Notes under the pieces: model-generated
Databases searched by the model: none
What the model was told of the DNA's origin: nothing
Seen by the model: only the letters and a program-made list of their open reading frames with translations
Assembly: GCA_029392475.1 (NCBI GenBank)
Contig: CP113940.1
Location: 868,001 to 932,000, forward strand
Direction: 5' to 3'
DNA from: Streptococcaceae bacterium ESL0687
GTDB taxonomy: Bacteria > Bacillota > Bacilli > Lactobacillales > Streptococcaceae
Length of the DNA: 64,000 bases
Shown here: piece by piece, positions 1 through 15,420 of the stretch
Layout: every line of letters begins with the position of its first letter
Numbering within the stretch: position 1 is the stretch's first letter
Program-made: the position numbers and the translations under genes

Positions 1-192
1 ATATTTATTTGCTAGAAAATCAAATATCTCCTGGCTACTTGCTGAAAAATCAATAGTTTCATAAGTATAAGATTCATCAATATCCCAGTTATCCAAAGAA
101 TATATAAAAATTGGTTGGTAATTTAAGTCCATAACTTCTTTAGCGATAAAGGGAACGCTTGTACTTTCTGTTAGAATCAAAACCTCCTTCAT
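1..192 (-). CDS. N-terminus of putative ATP-grasp-type ligase (partial, runs off the left edge)
   Basis: An open frame of 64 codons begins with ATG at 192 and continues off the window. Its first residues read MKEVLILTESTSVPFIAKEV, a beta-strand/turn/helix start followed by a second strand (PIFIYSLDNW). This resembles the preATP-grasp N-domain of amino-acid ligases, but the nucleotide-binding part is outside the window, so the call is inference. The ATG overlaps the stop of the upstream carrier-protein gene in an ATGA arrangement, which implies translational coupling. In butirosin biosynthesis an ATP-grasp enzyme (BtrJ) loads an amino acid onto the free carrier BtrI; the neighbourhood here is consistent with that scheme. 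Another Rossmann-like enzyme is possible. Confidence 0.5.
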   Translation of the reverse strand, partial: MKEVLILTESTSVPFIAKEVMDLNYQPIFIYSLDNWDIDESYTYETIDFSASSQEIFDFLANKY

Positions 193-440
193 TTTTGATC
201 CCCCTTAAAATCTTCATAAAGTTTGATGACCCTACCTACAGTAGAAACGTCATCAATATCAAAGATATCATAATCAAATTCCCTACCTACAAGATCTTCA
301 ATCCGTAACACAAGATCCATGGTAGCTAGACTATCAATTCCCAGATTTTTTATGGGAGTTTGTTCATAAGTTTCTTGGTTTTCCTTTATATCTTCAATAG
401 TAGCCTCACTTAAAAAACCCCTAAAAATTTCCTTAACCAT
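189..440 (-). CDS. Stand-alone acyl/peptidyl carrier protein
   Basis: This 83-residue protein has the size and helical pattern of a phosphopantetheine carrier. The signature NLGIDSLATMDLV places the modifiable serine at residue 37, inside the canonical DSL motif. It would carry an acyl or aminoacyl group as a thioester after priming by a phosphopantetheinyl transferase encoded elsewhere. It overlaps the upstream BtrH-like gene by 8 bp and the downstream ligase-like gene by 4 bp, so the three form one tightly coupled operon. It is unlikely to be the fatty-acid ACP, since no fab genes are near and it sits in an accessory cluster. It resembles BtrI-type carriers in size and setting. The carrier assignment is secure; the cargo is unknown. 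Confidence 0.85.
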   Translation of the reverse strand: MVKEIFRGFLSEATIEDIKENQETYEQTPIKNLGIDSLATMDLVLRIEDLVGREFDYDIFDIDDVSTVGRVIKLYEDFKGDQK

Positions 441-1416
441 TCTTTTCTCCTTCTTTTAAAACAAAAGCATGAATTGACTTCTGTAAAAGTGCGTAACTAT
501 TCCCAAGATTTTTCAAGCTGACTAAATATTTATCATATATGGAAGGTGACTGCCTAGCATTTAAAAAACTAAACCACTTAAAAAGTTCTTTTAAGTCATT
601 TCTCACATGATTGATTTGTTTAGTACTTTCAATTTCTGCCCCATAAAAAGAAAATACCTCCTCCCAACAGTTCAAAATAGGTTCAATTTTATTGGCTATG
701 TGTTTATACATCCTAAGTTGATCACTCTTTGCCAGACCTTCATCAAATATTTTTGACCGTCTATCCCTATAGTATTCATAAAGTCCATCTAAGGCTAGTC
801 TACTTGGCTCAACTATTTGCCCATTTTGGTACAAATTTCCATTTTTACAAGTATAAGCATATTTCCCAAACATAATTTTTTCGAAAATATTAGCCCAAGT
901 GATTCTTTCTAAAAAGAGATTAATCTTCGAAGCATTAAGGAAAACGAGATTAAAATCCTTTAACTCTTCAGGTCCGAATTTCAATTTAAAATCCTCCAAG
1001 GTAAAAGGGACTTTTAAATTCCGATTAGTTTCATTTGTCTTAGTCAAAAATACTTGATTTCCTTTAATATCTTCAATCAAAGTGCTAGTAAAATAGATTG
1101 ACCCATCCTTATGATTATTAGCAAGCATGGCATAGGCCGTACAACCTTCACGAAACTTATTCTTCAAGGTATTTTCCAAAGTTATTTCTGAACAAGTAAT
1201 TTCTTCTTCAAACTCTTTTTTTAATCTATCAAAACCATTTGAATTTAAAGGAATGATAGGCTCATTTCCGCTTAAAAGATCAAAACCTAGATATCTATCC
1301 ATAAAAAGAATTTTAAACAAAGAAAATTTTTGGATTCTCTCCAGATAATGAAACATTGTTCGGTCATAACAAACATAAGCAAGACTATCCTCGTGTTCTA
1401 AATCAGTAAGTTCCAT
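433..1416 (-). CDS. BtrH-like (C39-like fold) putative acyltransferase
   Basis: This soluble 327-residue protein has no signal peptide. Residues 10-20 read DSLAYVCYDRT, with a cysteine at 16 in the place where BtrH_N/papain-like enzymes keep theirs. Residues 90-147 (from GCTAYAML to LEDFKLKFG) have the strand-rich pattern seen in such domains just before the second half. I cannot find a clear catalytic histidine, so activity is uncertain. In butirosin synthesis BtrH moves an acyl chain from the carrier protein onto an amine acceptor; the next gene here is a carrier protein overlapping by 8 bp, which supports a similar job. The start ATG has an AAGGGG ribosome site about 8 bp upstream. The C-terminal half is helical and unrecognised. 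Function is inferred. Confidence 0.45.
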   Translation of the reverse strand: MELTDLEHEDSLAYVCYDRTMFHYLERIQKFSLFKILFMDRYLGFDLLSGNEPIIPLNSNGFDRLKKEFEEEITCSEITLENTLKNKFREGCTAYAMLANNHKDGSIYFTSTLIEDIKGNQVFLTKTNETNRNLKVPFTLEDFKLKFGPEELKDFNLVFLNASKINLFLERITWANIFEKIMFGKYAYTCKNGNLYQNGQIVEPSRLALDGLYEYYRDRRSKIFDEGLAKSDQLRMYKHIANKIEPILNCWEEVFSFYGAEIESTKQINHVRNDLKELFKWFSFLNARQSPSIYDKYLVSLKNLGNSYALLQKSIHAFVLKEGEKNG

Positions 1417-1547: not shown

Positions 1548-2405
1548 ATGAAATCAGATTTTGGAAGAACCCTCAGAAAAATAAGAAGAGGAAAAAATGT
1601 AAGTATTTGTCAGCTTGAGGTTTGTGGACTTTCAAAGTCCCAGATATCAAGATTTGAACGCGGGGAATCAGAAATTTCTTGCTCGAGATTTATTAAAATT
1701 CTGGATGTTTTAAATATCGGATTAGATGAATTTATAGGCTTTCACAATCTACAAAAATCAAATAAATTACCTTCAACAGTTAATCTTCAAAGAATCCATA
1801 TTAATAAGGACTTAAAGCAACTTGAGGGCATCCTCCAAACACTAGAAGACACCCATTCCAATCAACTAGAGAAAGTAATGATTAAGGTCATGATTTACTC
1901 CTTAAACCAAAGCTCAAAACCCTCGCAAAAAGAGATTAATCTTTTGACAGATTATCTATTTGACATTGATTTATGGGGTAATTTCGAAATCAACCTCCTT
2001 AACGACTCTGCTTCTATCATCAACTACAACACCCTGTATTTATTGACCAAGGAGCTGATAACAGATTCTTCTGATTTTACTTCCAATCAAGCAAACAAAC
2101 TCCTGATTATTCAATTGGCTATTAATACTTTAATGATAAGTATTGATCTTGGCTTTTTTGGCAATTCAAAGTTTTTAATCAGAAATTTAAGAGAGCTCTT
2201 AAAAAGCGAAAACTACCTGTATGAAGATACGATTTTTATGTATGCAAGAGGTTATTTAAACTTTAAAACAGGATCCTTATCCGGTAAGAAAAATATGGTT
2301 CGTTCCCTAAAAATCCTTAGATACCTCAACAAGGATTCCCTCCTCAAGGTTTATTTAAAACACTATTTAAAGAATGTTGAAAATAGGATTGAACTAACCC
2401 ATTAA
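1548..2405 (+). CDS. Rgg/GadR/MutR-family transcriptional regulator
   Basis: The 285-residue length matches Rgg regulators. Residues 1-65 form an XRE-type helix-turn-helix (FGRTLRKIRRGKNVSICQLE, then GLSKSQISRFERGES), and the remainder is all-helical, as in the TPR-like peptide-sensing domain of this family. Rgg proteins usually bind short secreted peptides or act on an adjacent operon. The gene is divergent from the carrier-protein/BtrH-like operon and separated by 131 bp, so that operon is the most likely target. I looked in both flanks for a short hydrophobic peptide gene and found none. The ribosome site (AGTGGGA) is weak. The gene ends in a strong hairpin terminator. Confidence 0.8.
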   Translation: MKSDFGRTLRKIRRGKNVSICQLEVCGLSKSQISRFERGESEISCSRFIKILDVLNIGLDEFIGFHNLQKSNKLPSTVNLQRIHINKDLKQLEGILQTLEDTHSNQLEKVMIKVMIYSLNQSSKPSQKEINLLTDYLFDIDLWGNFEINLLNDSASIINYNTLYLLTKELITDSSDFTSNQANKLLIIQLAINTLMISIDLGFFGNSKFLIRNLRELLKSENYLYEDTIFMYARGYLNFKTGSLSGKKNMVRSLKILRYLNKDSLLKVYLKHYLKNVENRIELTH

Positions 2406-2506: not shown

Positions 2507-4486
2507 TCAGACATCAGACAATCTAATACCATCATACTCCCAATATCGACTACCCTGATTAGAGGGGGCTGGTATTCCAAGTCTTTCATTAAGAATTTTT
2601 GTTAGTGGAAGTAATCTATATTTTTTACCTTCAAATTCCACTTCTTTGTCACTTGTTACTTTTGCCTTTAATGTTTTATCTGAAATAAAATTAATAACTT
2701 CCCCAATTAAATCTAACTCAACAAAAGAAAATTTTCCTCTTTTAGCCACATAATTATTCCTCCTTTTAAAATCTACTGGAATTGGAAGTACATTATCAAC
2801 AATGTAATGAGATAATTTACTACTTCTCTCTTTAATAGCTACTCCATTCCAGATATTCTTATCTGTAATATAAGATTTTGCGATTTGAAGTCCTGAATTA
2901 TTTTCATAAATCTCTCTTTTAAATTCAAAAGATTTATTACCAAGTTCTTGGTTATGCCGTATTAAAGTCAAATTTCCAATATTATTTAACCACCTTTGAT
3001 GAATTTCTTCGTAATTACTACCTAGCTCTTTTTTCCAAGATTCATTTAAAACTTGAGGCATAATGTGCTCTATTTGAAGTTTTTTATCTTCTTTAGAAGG
3101 ACGTGATTTGGTCATCCTTTCTTCAACAAGTGATAGAATAAATTTGCAATATCCGAAATCACCGAAATTCATCACTTCAAGACCTGATAACAGTTCATAA
3201 TCATTCGGTAATCGAAGAGTATTTTCTTGATTAGCTAGTATTTTAAACATGCCTAATCTTTTATCATCTTCATTAACCAAGGTCTTTACCTTCTTTATAA
3301 GAAGAGGAAAGGCTTTGTTTTCAGCTTGAGTAAGCTTAATAATACGCCTACGTAAGAAATAAATAAATAGCACATCTAATATTTCAATAATTTCCATATC
3401 AGTCAAAAATTCATTATCCCATTCAGAAAATATACTGAGTAGAAAAGAATAAAGTATTGTTACATTTATTGATCGAAGATCAATCAATTTAGAATCAATA
3501 TACTCATTTCCTGTACTTTTTCCCATAACTATGTACGCATAATATTTTGAATATACCTTCAATTCTTTTAAAAAATTTTCAGTAGAGTATCCATCAAATA
3601 AAACTTTGAATTCAGCATATAATTCTTTAAAATTTGTTGGTGTAGCTTTTTTAAAATTCTTTTCATCTTTCAATTGCATGAAATCACGGATGAAATTTGA
3701 AACCTCACCAGATAAGTGTTTTTCAATATAGAGCCAATATTTTTCATAAAGATAAATTTGTCGTTCAGTACTCTCCCCTAAAAGAAGATAATTTCTCACT
3801 AAATCTGCAAGAGAGAGGGGTTTCCCTAAAGAATTCATTGATTCAAATACTTCTTGAGGATTTTCCCAATTATTTTTCACAGGTTCAAGCTGAATCATTA
3901 CAATACTAAATTTTTCAAGCCCCTTTTCAATCAAATTTTCAAGAATAAATTCTGGTTTTTTTGATTTTAAATCTTTTAGTCTCCTTACAAAATATTCATA
4001 ATTTATAAAAACAGCTGAATTCCTATCATCATCGGTCAGTTCCTCATTAGTAATAATATTTTTATAAGCTGACCAGTCACTCTCAACCTGTTTTAATTTG
4101 ATCTTATACTCAGAATCCACATTATTAGATATGTCTTGATTCATTAAAAATTTATTATCTATAATTTGTTTAAAATTATCATTGTCAATTATATCCCTAA
4201 GAGCAACAAGAAAAATCATAGTAGTGGTAATACGCTGCTGACCATCTGTTAAAATAAGTTTATCTGGTTCTCCATATGGCGTATCTTCTTGTACATATAC
4301 TATACTTCCAAAAAGATGCTCAGCTGTGATCCCTAATATATTTGACTCTGCCGTTTTTAAAATGTCATCAAAAAAGACCGAACACTGTTCATAGTCCCAT
4401 TCATAATTTCGCTGGTAAGGCGGAATAAAAAAGGTTACATTTCCACTTTTTAAATATTTTAAAAGATATCCTTTAGAAACTTCCAT
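2507..4486 (-). CDS. DUF262/DUF1524 GmrSD-type restriction endonuclease
   Basis: From the chosen start the protein has 659 residues. The DUF262 domain has its two hallmarks: PPYQRNYEWD near residues 22-31 and DGQQRITT at 81-88, a ParB-like nucleotide-binding site. The DUF1524 part carries the HNH-type nuclease motif (KLQIEHIMPQ, then NNIGNLTLIRHNQELGNKSF). Fused DUF262-DUF1524 proteins are type IV, modification-dependent restriction enzymes related to GmrSD and defend against phages with modified DNA. A further C-terminal domain of about 90 residues contains KVTSDKEVEFEGKKYRL and YWEYDGIRL, resembling RAMA-like reader domains; that is inference. The ATG at 4486 has a GGGGGG-rich ribosome site, so an upstream 17-codon extension is not counted. 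It stands alone with no methylase and is very AT-rich. Confidence 0.88.
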   Translation of the reverse strand: MEVSKGYLLKYLKSGNVTFFIPPYQRNYEWDYEQCSVFFDDILKTAESNILGITAEHLFGSIVYVQEDTPYGEPDKLILTDGQQRITTTMIFLVALRDIIDNDNFKQIIDNKFLMNQDISNNVDSEYKIKLKQVESDWSAYKNIITNEELTDDDRNSAVFINYEYFVRRLKDLKSKKPEFILENLIEKGLEKFSIVMIQLEPVKNNWENPQEVFESMNSLGKPLSLADLVRNYLLLGESTERQIYLYEKYWLYIEKHLSGEVSNFIRDFMQLKDEKNFKKATPTNFKELYAEFKVLFDGYSTENFLKELKVYSKYYAYIVMGKSTGNEYIDSKLIDLRSINVTILYSFLLSIFSEWDNEFLTDMEIIEILDVLFIYFLRRRIIKLTQAENKAFPLLIKKVKTLVNEDDKRLGMFKILANQENTLRLPNDYELLSGLEVMNFGDFGYCKFILSLVEERMTKSRPSKEDKKLQIEHIMPQVLNESWKKELGSNYEEIHQRWLNNIGNLTLIRHNQELGNKSFEFKREIYENNSGLQIAKSYITDKNIWNGVAIKERSSKLSHYIVDNVLPIPVDFKRRNNYVAKRGKFSFVELDLIGEVINFISDKTLKAKVTSDKEVEFEGKKYRLLPLTKILNERLGIPAPSNQGSRYWEYDGIRLSDV

Positions 4487-4638
4487 TAGCTTACACCCCC
4501 CCATAATCTTTCTTGTTTTAATATATATTGAAACCATAATTTTATTACCAACTTATTGTAACAAAAATAGAAAATTTAATAAAATTATAATCAACAATCC
4601 TTTACATCTAATAATTATTCATTATCAATCTCTTTATT

Positions 4639-8500: not shown

Positions 8501-8527
8501 AAAAACCTTTCATAACGAAAGGTTTTT
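8501..8527. terminator. Bidirectional terminator between convergent genes
   Basis: AAAAACCTTTC and GAAAGGTTTTT form an 11-bp stem with a five-base loop, flanked by A and T runs. It lies just after the stop of the 281-aa gene and downstream of the minus-strand XRE gene. Confidence 0.85.
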
Positions 8528-8570: not shown

Positions 8571-8927
8571 TTATTTACTACCAATTTCTTTACTTTGTTC
8601 ATAAATTTGATAATCAATAAAATTCATAACTTGTATTTTTCGATTATCTTCAAGTTTATTGTACATGGAAAGAAGCTGCTCTATTTTATTGATTGGATCT
8701 TTATCGTCCACAGATTTATAAGATTCTATTAAATCTGATTTATCAACTTCAAAAAAATCTGCCATTAATTCTATTTTATCTATACGGGGATAAGTTTTAG
8801 CATTTATCCAATCTAAGACTGTTGAGTATTTCAAACCCAATTTATCAGAAAGCTGCTTTACATTTTTTAATCCCTTATTATCCATGTATCTCTTTATGTT
8901 CGAAGATATTATTTCCTTATTATTCAT
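8571..8927 (-). CDS. XRE/Cro-type helix-turn-helix regulator
   Basis: The start is placed at ATG 8927 (MNNKEIISSNIKRYMDNKGL), giving 118 residues; the frame is open 14 codons further but that part overlaps the upstream gene and is not protein-like. Residues 3-60 form a Cro-like helix-turn-helix (QLSDKLGLKYSTVLDWINAK, with YPRIDKIELMADFF following). The C-terminal 50 residues are helical and probably mediate dimerisation. It lies 13 bp after a DUF488 gene and may be co-transcribed with it, although the ribosome site is weak. Its target is unknown. Confidence 0.75.
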   Translation of the reverse strand: MNNKEIISSNIKRYMDNKGLKNVKQLSDKLGLKYSTVLDWINAKTYPRIDKIELMADFFEVDKSDLIESYKSVDDKDPINKIEQLLSMYNKLEDNRKIQVMNFIDYQIYEQSKEIGSK

Positions 8928-8940
8928 ATCACTGTTTATT

Positions 8941-9321
8941 TTAATTCTCCCCCAACTTCCCCACCACATAATCCTTCAAGACTACTGCTTCGTTGTGCTC
9001 GGTGTCACGTGCGCCGTATAGAAACACCGCATTGCCTTCCTTGAGTTTTTCGTCAATCAAACTTAGGAGTTCTGGAGTTTTGGGATTTGCATCCAGCTCC
9101 TTTTGGTAGCGACTTTTAAAGTCAGGATAGCGGTCAGCTATGTGATTAAACCACCTTCTTAAATCATTTGTTGGGGCAAAGTCCTTGGCCCACAGATCAA
9201 GATCTGCCCTTTCCTTGGAAACTCCTCTGGGCCATAAACGGTCAACAAGTATCCGAAAACCGTCTTTTACTTCCTGGCTCTCATCCTTATCGTAAATTCT
9301 TTCTAAAATAATTTTTCCCAT
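8941..9321 (-). CDS. DUF488 family protein
   Basis: The family signature is clear: RILVDRLWPRGVSKERADLD near the N-terminus, WAKDFAPTNDLRRWFNH, then a C-terminal strand-helix (AVFLYGARDTEHNEAVVLKD). The molecular role of DUF488 proteins is not established. I start at ATG 9321 (MGKIILERIYDKDESQE) because it has a GGAAG ribosome site; a TTG four codons upstream is also possible. The length of 126 residues is usual. It follows the ABC exporter gene by only about 20 bp, so it may be a read-through member of the synthetase operon. Confidence 0.85.
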   Translation of the reverse strand: MGKIILERIYDKDESQEVKDGFRILVDRLWPRGVSKERADLDLWAKDFAPTNDLRRWFNHIADRYPDFKSRYQKELDANPKTPELLSLIDEKLKEGNAVFLYGARDTEHNEAVVLKDYVVGKLGEN

Positions 9322-9342
9322 AATAACTTCCAACCTTTCTTT

Positions 9343-10983
9343 TTAACCAACATACAAGATATTAGTAGCAGTATCCGTTAACTTATCATGAGAAATAATA
9401 AGTATAATCTTGTCTTTGGCACATTCTTGAATGATTTTTAATAAATCTGGATATAACTTATTTGATATGTTTGAAAATGGTTCATCCAGGATAATCAGCT
9501 GAGCTTGTGGCTTGGTCAAGGTAACCAGTAAATTAATAAGCTGCCTTTCACCCCCTGACAGGTTTTCAAATTTTTTATGACGGTAGGAGTCAAAATCTTG
9601 GTTTAAATCCATCAGGCTGGGTAAAAAATTGCTAAACTTGTCAAATGGGCTGGTCCTCAAAATTTTCTTCAAGTCATCTTCTGGTAAATAGGTCTCAAGA
9701 ACATCGGCCACTGAAATAGTCTGGCAAACATTATTTTGAACCATAAAGGAAATTGATTTTTTCCTAAGGGATCTTAGATCTAAGGCGCTGATATCTTGAG
9801 TATTAATCTTAATCGAGCCCTCGTAGTTATTTTTAAGGAGTCCGACGAGAGTTTTCATGAGGGTAGTTTTTCCACTACCATTTTTCCCTTTAATGAAATA
9901 GATTTGACCTCTTTTAAAGTTTGCGGTCAAGCTACTTGTATAAAGATGGTCCTCTATATCTCCAGCTGACCTAGAAAGATTAAGATCTGTCACTGAAAGA
10001 TTATTGATCTCTTGGGGGCAAATATCCCCTTCTATGTCTTGGGGCAGGTCTAGAAGTTCATTTAATCTGGCTACAGCACCCCTATACTCTTCCAGGTCAA
10101 CAGCCAGGTAAAAGAAATTGTCAACTGATGAAATAAAGGTGCTAAAATACTGAATAACTGCGGTAAAACTACCAATTGTCATTTTCTTTTGAACAACTGA
10201 CACACCACCCATCCAGAAGAAAAGAGCCTGTGCTAGGAAGGTTGTGACAATTTGGATAGTTGAAATCGTATATCTTAGGCCAAAATTTGCCTTAACGGAT
10301 TCCATAAAGGGGGTCCATTTTTTGTTAAGCCTTGCTCCTTCAAGCTCCTCCGTCCTTTGAATAAAAATCTCAGATAATCTTTGGAAAATACTGCTTTTAC
10401 CGGCCGCAAAATGATTATCTCTTTCCCTGATTATATTAAAGGACGAGTACATTTTTTGGCGGAAGTACAGGTAAATTCCAATATAAACTAGTACAATCAG
10501 ATAAAAGTAAAGAAAGACCTGCCTCTGCAAATAAAAGAGGATAAGGGAGATTACTACAAGGGTCAAGACATCCTTGATAAATTTAGGTAGTCTGACAAAG
10601 AGAAAATGGACAACAATTTCAAGGTCAGAGTTTATTCTTGAATTTAAGTACTGCCCCTCATAGTTTTCAAGGCTGGAATAATCCTTTTGAAAAATCTTAT
10701 TCACCAAAAACTGATACAATTTGTAGTTTACTTCAACAAGACTCACATATTCAATCCGGCTTGAGAAATAAGAAACCATAAGTCTAGCCACAAAGATGGC
10801 TACTCCTCCCAGGCAAAGATAGATATATGTTTTAGAAAGAGTACCTGCAACCAGATTATTAATCAGCATTCCTTCCAAAAGAGGGGTTGAAATTTCAATA
10901 GCTGTAAGAATAAGAACCAAGATAACTTGAAAAATACCGTAGCTTGTAAATTTACCAAGCTCCTTTTTTAATAACCTACTCAT
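9343..10983 (-). CDS. Half-size ABC exporter (membrane plus ATPase domains)
   Basis: The 546-residue protein has about six N-terminal membrane segments (residues 10-300) and a C-terminal ATPase domain with Walker A (GKNGSGKTT), the signature LSGGERQ, Walker B (LIILDEP) and the switch histidine (ISHD). This is the layout of ABC-B/cyclic-peptide-type exporters that work as dimers. It overlaps the MFS gene by 8 bp and follows the synthetase gene, so it probably exports or gives resistance to the synthetase product. There is no peptidase domain, so it is not a bacteriocin leader-cleaving transporter. The ribosome site GGGGGAAGGG is strong. Confidence 0.88.
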   Translation of the reverse strand: MSRLLKKELGKFTSYGIFQVILVLILTAIEISTPLLEGMLINNLVAGTLSKTYIYLCLGGVAIFVARLMVSYFSSRIEYVSLVEVNYKLYQFLVNKIFQKDYSSLENYEGQYLNSRINSDLEIVVHFLFVRLPKFIKDVLTLVVISLILFYLQRQVFLYFYLIVLVYIGIYLYFRQKMYSSFNIIRERDNHFAAGKSSIFQRLSEIFIQRTEELEGARLNKKWTPFMESVKANFGLRYTISTIQIVTTFLAQALFFWMGGVSVVQKKMTIGSFTAVIQYFSTFISSVDNFFYLAVDLEEYRGAVARLNELLDLPQDIEGDICPQEINNLSVTDLNLSRSAGDIEDHLYTSSLTANFKRGQIYFIKGKNGSGKTTLMKTLVGLLKNNYEGSIKINTQDISALDLRSLRKKSISFMVQNNVCQTISVADVLETYLPEDDLKKILRTSPFDKFSNFLPSLMDLNQDFDSYRHKKFENLSGGERQLINLLVTLTKPQAQLIILDEPFSNISNKLYPDLLKIIQECAKDKIILIISHDKLTDTATNILYVG

Positions 10984-12223
10984 TTTCCCTTCCCCCTAGA
11001 AGAATCGAAACTACAGCTAGTAAGAAAATAGCAAGCCCCACTAAAATAAAGGTCAGGCTATGTACAGCTTGGGGAATTAGGGTAATCAGGGCTGTTCCAA
11101 ATGGCATAAAAAGAATGGCAATGGTAAAGACTGTCGAAAAAACACGTCCCAAATAATCATCAGCTACCTTAGACTGAATGCTACTTACAAAATGAATATT
11201 ATAGATGGTCAAAAAGAACATAAAAATCAGATTACCTAAATAAGAAATTAAAGATCCAGAAGAAATAAAACTTGGAGCTGCAATAATGGCTATCCCCAGG
11301 CCACTAAGTCCTAGAGAACTCAAAAGGGCAAACCTTGTATTGGGCAAGAACTTGGCACAAATGGCCCCTAAAATTGAACCTATGGCCCCAAAGGTCAAAA
11401 GTTTAGAATAAAATTCCTGGTCACCAAAAATTTGATTGGAAAAGGGCATCAAATAGTTATAAAAGGAAATAAAAAAGTTAACAAAGGCTGAGGTCACAAG
11501 AAGCTCAAAGAGCCTTTTATCCGATTTAATATATTTTAGACCGTCTTTTATATCCTCTAAAAGCTCTGCAAAATTCCTTTTAATGCTTGCTTTTTCCTGA
11601 TTAGATTGATGGGATGGATGAGATTGAAGGGAACTTGATACCTCCTCTTCTTTCTCGCAGCCTGTATTCTCAAAAACAGTCAGCATAACCAAGTAGCAGG
11701 CTAGAAAACTTAAAGCAGTCACAAGTAGGGTCGCCCGAATCCCAAAGCTATTATAAATATAAAAGGACATGAGAGGGGACAGAACGCTAAAAACTTGCAT
11801 GATTGTCTCTAAAACTGAATTAAAAGAAAGAATTTTACTTTTTTCAATGGCATTAGGAATTAGGGACTTGAAGGCCGTACTGGCAAAGGAGTACATGATG
11901 GCAAGGATAATGTTTGCGACCACTATCCCGTAAAGCATCAATCTGTCATCTCCGATTAAAGAAATTAAGAGGCAGGCAAAAAAACTTACAAGGTCCGTAA
12001 ATAGGATTATCTTCTTTCTCTTAAAGCGGTCCGCCACAGCTCCTGCAATGGGATTAAAAAAGATGGAAATCAGAGTTTCTGACATCTGATAAATTCCTAG
12101 ATACTTTTGACCCAAGGAACCCATGGAGGCAATCCAAACACTGTTGGCATAGTCATAGGTAACACTTCCTACCTGGTATAAAATTCGGTTAACTAATAGC
12201 TTAAAATAATTGTCTTTCTTCAA
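10976..12223 (-). CDS. Major facilitator superfamily exporter
   Basis: The 415-residue protein has about twelve hydrophobic segments and the MFS loop 2-3 motif (GAVADRFKRKKII). It resembles the enterobactin-exporter/MFS_3 group found beside nonribosomal peptide genes. The central loop (residues about 195-225) is a charged, serine- and histidine-rich cytoplasmic linker. Translation begins at a TTG with an AAGGAG ribosome site seven bases upstream, and no nearby ATG competes. It lies 20 bp after the synthetase and overlaps the ABC exporter, so the three are one operon. Two different exporters in one small cluster is unusual. Confidence 0.88.
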   Translation of the reverse strand: MKKDNYFKLLVNRILYQVGSVTYDYANSVWIASMGSLGQKYLGIYQMSETLISIFFNPIAGAVADRFKRKKIILFTDLVSFFACLLISLIGDDRLMLYGIVVANIILAIMYSFASTAFKSLIPNAIEKSKILSFNSVLETIMQVFSVLSPLMSFYIYNSFGIRATLLVTALSFLACYLVMLTVFENTGCEKEEEVSSSLQSHPSHQSNQEKASIKRNFAELLEDIKDGLKYIKSDKRLFELLVTSAFVNFFISFYNYLMPFSNQIFGDQEFYSKLLTFGAIGSILGAICAKFLPNTRFALLSSLGLSGLGIAIIAAPSFISSGSLISYLGNLIFMFFLTIYNIHFVSSIQSKVADDYLGRVFSTVFTIAILFMPFGTALITLIPQAVHSLTFILVGLAIFLLAVVSILLGGRENE

Positions 12224-12243
12224 ATTCTTCTCCTTGACTCCTC

Positions 12244-15186
12244 TTAAATGTTAATAAGTCCTTGGGTGATTGGTAGGAAAATTAAATCCTCACCGCAAGA
12301 AAAGTAGGTTATGTAAAGTTTGGCCCTTGAAAAATTCTCAAGTGAGTACTGCTGCTTGCATAGCTCTTCAATGGTCTCTTCCAAGTCTTTTTCTCTAATG
12401 GCTCCTAAAAAATTACTGCTAAATTTTAAATTATCATCCAAGTAAAATTCATACTTTTTCAGATCTTCTGGAATATAAGGGTAGGCCTTATAAATGCTAT
12501 TGTTTAAGTTGTCTCCCCTTAAAAAGTAAGAGTAGATGAGGTCATAAGACTTCCTAAAGCTCTCTTCACTGTCTTCTTTGCGGTAAACAAAGGGCAGGGT
12601 TGTGTGAACATCACCAAAGACCTGGCTAAAATCGTACCCGTCAAACTGACGCAGGTTAATGATGGTTGATCCTGCGACAATGTTTTGATCCTGGGACTGG
12701 CACAGAAGTCTTGCCAGAATAAAGTTTCCGTAAAAAATGTTGTCATAGTGATTCTTGTAGGGTGTTTTCACCCTCAGATAGTTCTTAGTTTCCCCGTAAG
12801 ATTTGCTATAAAAATCAGCTCCTGCTACTAGCTCAAAGCCTTGACTACAGACAGCTTCAAGACTTTCTGGCCTAGAATTTTCATCGATAAAACGAATAAA
12901 ATCACTGTAAGTTGGGTTACTTTCTAAGGTTCCTCCTTCAAGGGACGTCAAAATATCTCTTTCAAGGATACTTAAAGACGACTTGTCAGTAATCAAATGA
13001 TTGATGAAAAAGTGGAGTTCTGAGGTGTCTTCTACAAAGTAAACCTCCCACAAAAGACGATCAAAAACCACATCCTCCAGGTCTTTAATGATTAAGTCCC
13101 TAAGATTTTCTAAGGTATTTCGGGAGATAACAGGAATTTTATGCCTGTAAGGTTCATAGACTGCTAACTTTTGCCCTTCATCTTGTCTAATGAAAGAACG
13201 CAAGAGTTCAGATTTTTCAATGACCTTATCCACAAGCCCCTCAATTTGCTCAATTTCTCTAACTTCTTTAGGTAGTACAAGCTTTAATTCTAAAACTTGA
13301 CGGAAGTCATCGGCCAAATAAGCCTTCTGCAGGTAGTAAGAATCCTTAAGCTCACGCGCGCCCCTCTTAAGAATAATCTTATTTAACTCTCTAATATTTT
13401 TAAGGTTGGCATAGTAGTTAGCCTTCTGGAAATCCGTCAGCTGGTCCTTGTCATAACTTTCAGTTCTATAATTGCCCGTAAGACTCGATTTTATGTCCTT
13501 TATGGTCTGGTTTTGCTTTAAGAAATCCTCAGATAAATTAAGACCATAGTAGTCTTCAAGGGCCATAATTACCTCAATTTCTGTTAGAGAATCCATCTGG
13601 GACAAAAGCCTCAAATTCTTATCATCGTCTAATGAAGGAAGATTCAAAATGCCTGCAATGAGAGAGTTTAAACTTTCAGTCCGTGGCCTCTTTTCTTCTA
13701 GCTTATCTGATCCTTGCCAATCTACTTGGTAATTCTGCTTGAATTCTTCCTCCAGGAAGGCAAGGTCAAGCTTATTACTAGCCGTTAATTTAAATTCCTT
13801 GACTAGAATATGATAAGAGGGAATCATATAGCTAGGTAAATGATTTTCTAGGCAGTTTTTTAGATAAGAAAAATCAAGCCATCTATCAGAAAAAAGCACT
13901 AAATTATTATCAATTTTTAAGACATTGAAACTAGTAAAATCATCAATGTAAGAATGAATGGCCTGCTCAATTTCTGCCAGCTCAATCCTAATTCCGTTTA
14001 TCTTGACCTGCTTGTCCTCCCGACCCTGGTAATAAATTAGGCCATCTTCCTTATAGCCCAAATCTCCAGTTCGGTAGTAGGTTTTCCCATCAAGATTTAT
14101 AAAACGCTCAGCAGTAAATTTAGGATTACCGAAATAACCTCGACTTACCCCGCAACCTCCAATCAAAATCTCGCCCTGATTTGGATTCGTCAACTGGTCT
14201 TGATAAAATTTAATATCTGCTCCCTTTAAAGGCTGACCGATTGGAACACTTGAAGTCTCAACTTGATTTTTAATCTGATAGTAGCTAGCATAAATGGTTG
14301 TTTCTGTTGGACCATAGCAGTTAAAAAGGTTAAGCTCAGGCATTAAGGTTAAGAGCTGGTTGGCTAAATTAACAGGCAGGGCTTCACCTGCTAGGATAAT
14401 GTTTTTAAGTCCTGTATCCCTAAAGTCGCTGCGGGTCATGGCAAGAAGAGTTTTTAAGGAAGTAGGAGAAAGGGCAATGTGGCTTATAGAACCATCCAAT
14501 AGGATTTTTTTAAGGTTTTTAAACTGCTGAATGGGGGTGCCTGGCTCCATAAACTGCAAGCTACCTGTGCCAAAAATAAAGGACAGACTTTCATGGAAGG
14601 AAACATCAAACTGAGGCGGAGTTGAGATGATAAAGGTGTCACCTTCTGTAAAGGGCACAAGTTCATTCATTTGATCTAAGAGCCAGTAAAGGTTGTCAAA
14701 AGTCACCTGAACCATCTTAGGATTTCCTGTAGTGCCTGAAGTTGATAGGATATAGGCAGTATCACTCCCGCTTTGGCTGGCTACCTGGTTAATACCTAAA
14801 GCATATTTCCCTGACTGTGAAGACTCAAAGGAAAGCTCTTTTATATTGTCTAAAGTTCCTTCATAATTTCTCGTCAAAATTAACTTACTTTTAATGGCTT
14901 CAAGCATGTTCTCCACCTTCTTGGGCGGAGTATTGCTGTTGATGGGCATATAAATCTTTCCCACCTTCCAAGCCGCAAGCATGGCCGTCAAATAGTCTAA
15001 GTTATCATTTGAAAGAATAGGTACAATGTCTAAACCCTCAAACTCTTTTTCTATAAATGCTGCTAGTAGATCTACCTTTTGATCAAAATCCTTATAGGTC
15101 AAAGAACTGCCGTTAGACAATTTCAACATAATTTTCTGTGCTCTTTTTTCAACCACTTTTTCATATTTTTTCAATAATCTATTCAT
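12244..15186 (-). CDS. Single-module nonribosomal-peptide-type synthetase (adenylation-carrier-condensation)
   Basis: The protein has about 980 residues and three domains. The adenylation domain (about 5-490) has YILSTSGTTGNPKMVQVT (A3), FDVSFHE (A4, with the amino-acid-binding aspartate), NCYGPTETT (A5), YRTGDLGYKEDG (A7) and QVKINGIRIELAEIE (A8); the A10 lysine motif is ASNKLD. The carrier domain has its serine at about 535 (QMDSLTEIEV). The C-terminal part (about 590-980) is condensation-like with NHLITDK at about 731-737 in place of HHxxxDG. It should activate one amino acid, hold it as a thioester and transfer it to an acceptor. No thioesterase or reductase domain is present. ATG 15186 has an AAGGGG ribosome site; a TTG two codons upstream is less likely. 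Product unknown. Confidence 0.9.
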   Translation of the reverse strand: MNRLLKKYEKVVEKRAQKIMLKLSNGSSLTYKDFDQKVDLLAAFIEKEFEGLDIVPILSNDNLDYLTAMLAAWKVGKIYMPINSNTPPKKVENMLEAIKSKLILTRNYEGTLDNIKELSFESSQSGKYALGINQVASQSGSDTAYILSTSGTTGNPKMVQVTFDNLYWLLDQMNELVPFTEGDTFIISTPPQFDVSFHESLSFIFGTGSLQFMEPGTPIQQFKNLKKILLDGSISHIALSPTSLKTLLAMTRSDFRDTGLKNIILAGEALPVNLANQLLTLMPELNLFNCYGPTETTIYASYYQIKNQVETSSVPIGQPLKGADIKFYQDQLTNPNQGEILIGGCGVSRGYFGNPKFTAERFINLDGKTYYRTGDLGYKEDGLIYYQGREDKQVKINGIRIELAEIEQAIHSYIDDFTSFNVLKIDNNLVLFSDRWLDFSYLKNCLENHLPSYMIPSYHILVKEFKLTASNKLDLAFLEEEFKQNYQVDWQGSDKLEEKRPRTESLNSLIAGILNLPSLDDDKNLRLLSQMDSLTEIEVIMALEDYYGLNLSEDFLKQNQTIKDIKSSLTGNYRTESYDKDQLTDFQKANYYANLKNIRELNKIILKRGARELKDSYYLQKAYLADDFRQVLELKLVLPKEVREIEQIEGLVDKVIEKSELLRSFIRQDEGQKLAVYEPYRHKIPVISRNTLENLRDLIIKDLEDVVFDRLLWEVYFVEDTSELHFFINHLITDKSSLSILERDILTSLEGGTLESNPTYSDFIRFIDENSRPESLEAVCSQGFELVAGADFYSKSYGETKNYLRVKTPYKNHYDNIFYGNFILARLLCQSQDQNIVAGSTIINLRQFDGYDFSQVFGDVHTTLPFVYRKEDSEESFRKSYDLIYSYFLRGDNLNNSIYKAYPYIPEDLKKYEFYLDDNLKFSSNFLGAIREKDLEETIEELCKQQYSLENFSRAKLYITYFSCGEDLIFLPITQGLINI

Positions 15187-15192
15187 TTTCAA

Positions 15193-15420
15193 ACCCCTTC
15201 TTTCAATATGTTAAAATTAAACCCTTTTTTTAATTTTTAAAGCCTATTTTTTAAAATAGAAAAACCTTACTTACCTTAGTTAATTACTACTGTTACCCTC
15301 TATTAAAGCATAAATTTTTATCAATCCATAAAATTTATAGTGATTCTTTCTTTTTATGAAAAAAATTAAAACTTATTGCATTTTTTACTGAAAATATCCA
15401 TTTAAAAACCTTATTTCTTG
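15193..15420. other. AT-rich leader/promoter region of the synthetase operon
   Basis: This gap is very AT-rich and must hold the promoter of the minus-strand synthetase operon. No hexamer pair with proper spacing stood out, and I see no operator-like dyad or coding potential. The adjoining terminator at 15421-15456 belongs to the upstream lipoprotein gene. Confidence 0.5.

Follow-up and report, generated by a model that had tools for sequence, protein, structure and literature searches.

Nonribosomal synthesis is usually pictured as the work of large assembly lines. In the Pseudomonas AMB pathway, the condensation (C) domain of AmbB takes a carrier-bound acceptor, passing alanine to glutamate held on AmbE, a second NRPS. 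Gut Clostridia make fatty-acid amides with the separate proteins OaaA, OaaACP and OaaC; there the C domain uses free amines with no acceptor carrier, and such domains carry a (D/H)HxxxD(S/A)-type motif whose second histidine is over 99% conserved (PMC13142362).

Here, we analysed a 64,000-nucleotide window of the genome of Streptococcaceae bacterium ESL0687 (CP113940.1), which contains an operon led by a synthetase gene with adenylation (A), carrier (T) and C domains. We favour, at a probability of roughly 0.55, a stand-alone amide (or ester) synthase of one module, accompanied by its exporter, in which the C domain would release the product onto a free acceptor, the ABC half-exporter would be a lineage-specific addition and the genes would form a mobile block.

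Operon layout and the conserved block

The synthetase, MFS and ABC half-exporter genes had been described in a first-pass annotation as one operon, and this holds: all three genes are intact and spaced by 20 bp and −8 bp (Table 1). The sequence AAGGGG lies seven bases 5′ of the synthetase ATG, the DUF488 gene starts 9 bp past the ABC gene, and a terminator-like hairpin (8501–8527) is found 3′ of the HTH gene. A promoter scan upstream of the synthetase returned sites no more numerous than in shuffles. Against 94% identity of the coding block, the A+T-rich upstream region is almost unconserved, which suggests that the promoter may differ between strains. A search of the same upstream side for a hidden precursor peptide yielded just meaningless ORFs of 21–31 aa.

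Table 1. Features of the operon, the synthetase and their surroundings (window positions)
Feature	Position	Strand	Details
A-T-C synthetase	12244..15186	-	980 aa, ATG start; full-length homologues at about 24 loci
Adenylation domain, residues about 9-485	13732..15162	-	A3 motif STSGTTGNPK 148-157; pocket code DVHAIACIYK (D194, K472)
Carrier (T) domain, residues 508-565	13492..13665	-	phosphopantetheine serine S533 in MDSL
Divergent condensation domain, residues about 571-980	12247..13476	-	profile, structure model, dN/dS 0.089
Catalytic motif NHLITDKSS	12976..13002	-	H730, D734; in place of HHxxxDG
Family signature GDVHTT	12598..12615	-	D859, H861; at usual FVNT motif position
MFS exporter	10976..12223	-	415 aa; MFS_1 8e-26 (Pfam)
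ABC half-exporter	9343..10983	-	546 aa; Pfam ABC_tran (PF00005) and ABC_membrane (PF00664)
DUF488 protein, inactive N3 subclade	8941..9333	-	PF22752 4e-32; last gene of conserved block
HTH_3 regulator	8571..8969	-	overlaps DUF488 gene; outside conserved block, not counted in module
A+T-rich upstream region	15192..15420	-	presumed promoter site; no conservation between two strains save a 47-bp stretch
Discrete 6.2-kb conserved block	8946..15191	.	94.3% identical with sister species G002; flanks non-homologous
Second small cluster, left window edge	192-2405 and further left (L082:8281-13417)		Rgg 1548-2405 (+); 327-aa protein 433-1416 (-); 83-aa carrier about 192-440 (-)

The host genome is a single contig of 1.4655 Mb. 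The genus to which GTDB assigns it is represented here by four species, two with one-contig genomes of about 1.4 Mb and two with genomes of 2.0–2.2 Mb in about 30 contigs. Two Streptococcaceae isolates with 1.4-Mb genomes, ESL0687 and ESL0729, have been described from Neotropical stingless bees; they represent separate species, and Floricoccus is their sister group (PMC10128065). The two small genomes carrying the operon (G000 and G002) are very probably these two stingless-bee gut isolates. The two larger genomes would then be Floricoccus, and the host would group with Floricoccus, not with Streptococcus proper.

The conserved block runs from the beginning of the synthetase gene to the end of the DUF488 gene, and the adjoining collinear core is 83% identical between the two species. 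Synonymous divergence is 0.16–0.24 in the four block genes versus 0.5–1.5 in three neighbouring genes, and GC3 is 0.37–0.44 in the block versus 0.28–0.37 in the three neighbouring genes. The DUF488 gene occupies the same place in G002 and is 97.7% identical. Floricoccus has a 54% DUF488 homologue elsewhere in its genome; leaving DUF488 out of the block on this ground was considered and dropped, since the shared block ends at the DUF488 end. The synthetase is absent from both Floricoccus genomes, where other genes occupy the site. Because the block is conserved above the core and absent from this site in both Floricoccus genomes, the synthetase, MFS, ABC and DUF488 genes behave as a single cassette whose exchange postdates that of the core.

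Domains of the synthetase

The A domain matches AMP-binding (PF00501) over residues 9–352 (174.7 bits, 3e-51; Pfam) and has the features of an NRPS-type domain, including the A3 motif and the amino-acid-binding pocket residues D194 and K472. We know of no standard code that matches its pocket code. Across the family, the code reads D-V-[HTSA]-..-Y-K in nearly all homologues and stays close to D-V-[T/H/S]-x-x-A-x-[I/V]-Y-K throughout; that it stays similar while the tailoring genes change suggests that one kind of amino acid is activated family-wide. In the PDB, the closest sequence comes from LgrA (219 bits), namely its second A domain, which we take to be a glycine domain, and on the basis of this similarity the substrate may be a small amino acid. 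The carrier domain scores 29.9 bits against PP-binding (PF00550; cut-off 20.8, 7e-7) and qualifies as an NRPS carrier, with a serine that is kept in every synthetase homologue. In the host genome, one PPTase domain was detected, in a protein of AcpS size.

Compared with curated models, the A domain matches a general amino-acid adenylation model best and DltA models next. This ranking, together with weak matches of both the synthetase and the MFS protein to an LplT-Aas-type fusion model (NF006386), would fit a role in envelope modification, in which a lipid or wall precursor would receive the amino acid from the synthetase and be flipped by the MFS protein, loosely as in Dlt or LplT-Aas, with no free metabolite secreted. 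However, the DltA scores are far below their cut-offs (239 versus 560 bits and 255 versus 476 bits), dltA/dltC-like genes exist elsewhere in the genome, and a carrier-fused C domain is no Dlt feature. In addition, homologous loci carry radical SAM, cysteine-synthase-like and ATP-grasp tailoring enzymes, and we regard a role in the envelope as quite improbable.

The C domain falls under the Pfam cut-off by sequence (PF00668, 16.8 bits versus 30.6), and the Exiguobacterium homologue is above it (39.3 bits). A phmmer search of the PDB with the C part alone gave no match, so a profile was used instead. Built from 12 relatives, the profile reaches Bacillota proteins of 3618 and 4001 residues (E near 1e-9), presumably assembly-line synthetases, and also matches solved NRPS C and Cy domains (E 0.001–0.005), aligned at the active-site motif. 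An AlphaFold model of the C domain was obtained from a 17-sequence alignment (pLDDT 83, pTM 0.82); a model of the whole synthetase from the single sequence (pLDDT 34) was not usable. All 50 PDB matches listed by Foldseek for the C-domain model carry NRPS C, E or Cy domains, with E down to 6e-15. The TM-scores of about 0.5 indicate that the lobes are arranged differently or that the model is imperfect. The C part is thus predicted to have the CAT-like, two-lobed fold of NRPS C domains.

Within the catalytic motif, the second histidine and the aspartate of HHxxxDG are retained, while the first histidine and the glycine are replaced, giving NHxxxDK; some homologues carry DHxxxDS or SHxxxDA at this position. 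The aspartate D734 is invariant in 19 of 19 aligned homologues. The histidine is shifted in one subgroup (L031–L033 and L050), in which the canonical residue is absent and the motif reads Y-H-S-I-D, so the chemistry may vary there. Loci of this subgroup carry a fused NUDIX/S-adenosylhomocysteine-hydrolase-like protein beside the synthetase. A second signature, GDxH, stands where canonical NRPS C domains have FVNT, and its residues D859 and H861 (D298 and H300 of alignment A2) are likewise invariant in all 19 homologues.

The first-pass annotation had raised the prospect that the condensation part is a non-functional remnant, in which case the protein would simply be an aminoacyl-carrier ligase. 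The PF00668 score below cut-off and the two replaced motif residues could be read in this way, but those positions are also variable in active fatty-acid-amide C domains, and a full-length C domain, with D734, D859 and H861 invariant, is present even in homologues of about 27% identity. Furthermore, dN/dS between the two operon-bearing species is lower in the C part (0.089) than in the A part (0.165); the MFS and ABC genes give 0.183 and 0.077, respectively. Because the C part is under purifying selection and has a confident C-domain fold, with H730 and D734 kept, we do not take it for a remnant; decay is very improbable, and the hypothesis was dropped.

No second C domain was found in the host genome, which argues that there is no partner assembly line, and the synthetase has no thioesterase or reductase domain. 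These results bear on whether the acceptor is itself carrier-bound, sitting on another molecule of the synthetase, which would give a homo-dipeptide or diketopiperazine, or on the 83-aa carrier of the second cluster. A second carrier, an adenylation enzyme and an ATP-grasp gene do lie within about 8–14 kb of the operon, and AmbB, which is also A-T-C and uses a carrier-bound acceptor, has its TC structures among the Foldseek matches listed. The second cluster, however, is missing from the pyrD–DUF488 interval of G002 although G002 has the operon, and it is not near the Lactobacillus homologue; a second C domain, or a thioesterase that would release a dipeptide, is lacking as described. A carrier-bound acceptor is therefore unlikely in our judgement, and release onto a free acceptor is the reading that we carry forward.

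Beyond the window edge, the second cluster, which looks biosynthetic, continues with ATP-grasp ligase, MFS and stand-alone adenylation enzyme genes. A GmrSD-type restriction protein (window 2507–4537) lies beside it, in a region whose gene content varies among the four genomes of the genus.

Related loci and exporters

Full-length synthetase homologues are found in G002 (94%), in a Lactobacillus MAG (57%, with an in-frame stop codon) and on plasmids of Exiguobacterium (36%) and Enterococcus (27%). A further 12 Streptococcaceae genomes carry one at 26–31% identity, making 14 of 337 genomes in all, and others are scattered in Lactobacillales and Bacillota. A scan of viral contigs with the synthetase found no relatives. 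The MFS gene lies within about 4 kb of the synthetase in 21 of the 24 loci (that of L046 is of another MFS type), and the pair occurs in streptococci, Lactobacillus, Enterococcus, Exiguobacterium and others. Apart from the MFS gene, the neighbours change completely between loci. Little beyond the pair is present in the Lactobacillus MAG and at L044, cysteine-synthase-like and PP-loop proteins occur at the Exiguobacterium locus, and NUDIX or NUDIX-AdoHcyase proteins, or an ATP-grasp ligase, occur at other loci. Tailoring genes that vary by locus, as they do in biosynthetic clusters, count in favour of a synthase acting with an exporter. An Rgg regulator gene adjoins the synthetase in four loci, L020 (where it is divergent), L029, L033 and L048, and another lies nearby in L031.

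Several loci are of interest in their own right. The conjugative Enterococcus plasmid NZ_CP040462.1 (L007:4613-12046) encodes the synthetase, the MFS protein, a B12-binding radical SAM protein, a SPASM radical SAM protein and a small pyrophosphatase. In streptococcal L022–L028, a conserved seven-gene cassette lies upstream of the synthetase, encoding shikimate-dehydrogenase-like, TIM-barrel, F420-ligase-like and oxidoreductase-like proteins, an archaeal-type AdoMet synthetase, a P-loop protein and a glycosyltransferase, with a UDP-glucose-dehydrogenase-like gene downstream; no described pathway matching this cassette was found. In L020, L028 and L048, the synthetase frame is broken or shortened by a stop codon, through decay or sequencing error. 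A relative of the window MFS protein occurs on the Apilactobacillus kunkeei (honeybee) plasmid OX335149.1 (L062:8912-19310), in a cluster that contains ATP-grasp ligases, a methyltransferase, an aminotransferase, transketolase halves and the MFS protein.

The ABC half-exporter has fused membrane and ATPase domains, as expected of a half-transporter, and intact Walker A, LSGGE, Walker B and H-switch motifs at residues 366, 475, 496 and 530. Its N-terminus has no C39 peptidase domain; the match to NF045998 begins at profile position 147, past the N-terminal region. The nearest relative in the plasmid set sits in a McbB/YcaO/SagB peptide-modification cluster, and a relative adjoins the synthetase only in the two bee-type genomes (G000 and G002), that is, in 2 of the 24 loci. 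The two different exporters that the first-pass annotation took as a hallmark are accordingly not one: what recurs is the synthetase with the MFS protein. The whole three-gene set was found again in the sister species, and the other loci mostly hold the pair.

With so few adjacent copies, and with its nearest relatives beside peptide-modification genes or away from any synthetase, the ABC half-exporter might be a passenger serving peptide export or immunity, the real operon being synthetase plus MFS; this would be compatible with an amide synthase. Against this, the ABC and MFS genes share 8 bp, dN/dS of the ABC gene is low, its transfer accompanied that of the synthetase, and no precursor peptide gene was seen upstream; we hold a passenger to be somewhat unlikely.

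No characterised matching cluster was found in the open-access literature with the few terms tried. The first-pass annotation likewise knew of no described streptococcal system of this form; related synthetase–MFS pairs nonetheless exist in streptococci and other Bacillota, which makes the window operon a member of a recurring and apparently undescribed family, not a single curiosity. More tentatively, this A-T-C family, with its HxxxD motif and invariant GDxH, together with one MFS protein and often near Rgg quorum-sensing regulators, might serve lactic acid bacteria and their relatives as a scaffold for making aminoacyl amides or esters for secretion, the mobile block here putting such a molecule into the stingless-bee gut.

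Proposed mechanism and comparison with known systems

In the proposed mechanism, the A domain would activate one α-amino acid, probably a small one that differs little or not at all between family members, and load it onto the neighbouring carrier domain in cis; the sole detected PPTase would have primed this carrier. The divergent C domain would then join the aminoacyl group to a small, freely diffusing acceptor, an amine or a hydroxyl compound, and this transfer would also release the product as an amide or ester. Family resemblance suggests that the MFS protein exports the product, with the ABC half-exporter as a lineage-specific second exporter or self-protection pump, and the whole operon would travel as a small mobile block. 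The earlier proposal that the operon makes and exports a very small modified amino acid or amide thus fits the single A-T-C module, the conserved C domain, the lack of a second C domain and the exporters, except that the ABC protein does not define the system.

Our analysis suggests a minimal NRPS with self-release, within a synthetase–MFS family apparently new to the literature. If this is true, a single-module self-releasing enzyme with one exporter, shuffled among small-genome bacteria, would amount to a minimal module for chemical signalling or antagonism that is easy to test. The conserved pocket code and the changing tailoring genes suggest one building block in many products, and the bee gut would offer a simple host system for finding the product.

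Among known systems, the MFS protein resembles TIGR00900/Mef-like exporters (E 8.5e-42), although its 143.8 bits are below the curated cut-off of 319.6. Unlike DltA, of which the genome has a separate counterpart, the synthetase has fused T and C domains. LgrA, the linear gramicidin synthetase, provides both the closest PDB sequence for the A domain and the best C-domain fold among the matches listed, but it is a multi-module assembly line with canonical motifs, and its C domain is only about 18% identical to that of the window protein. AmbB shares the A-T-C order in one protein; it differs in having AmbE as a partner, whereas the window genome encodes no partner C domain and so lacks the two-protein arrangement, and in carrying HHxxxDG, not NHxxxDK. 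The OaaA–OaaACP–OaaC systems likewise combine adenylation, a carrier and a C domain with a non-canonical HxxxD motif. The relaxation of NHxxxDK is comparable to that of their (D/H)HxxxDS, with the second histidine and the aspartate in common but other residues at the first and last positions, a partial likeness that would fit a free acceptor. Those systems, however, consist of separate proteins and use a fatty-acid donor, whereas in the window synthetase A, T and C are fused and the pocket keeps the amino-acid-binding D194.
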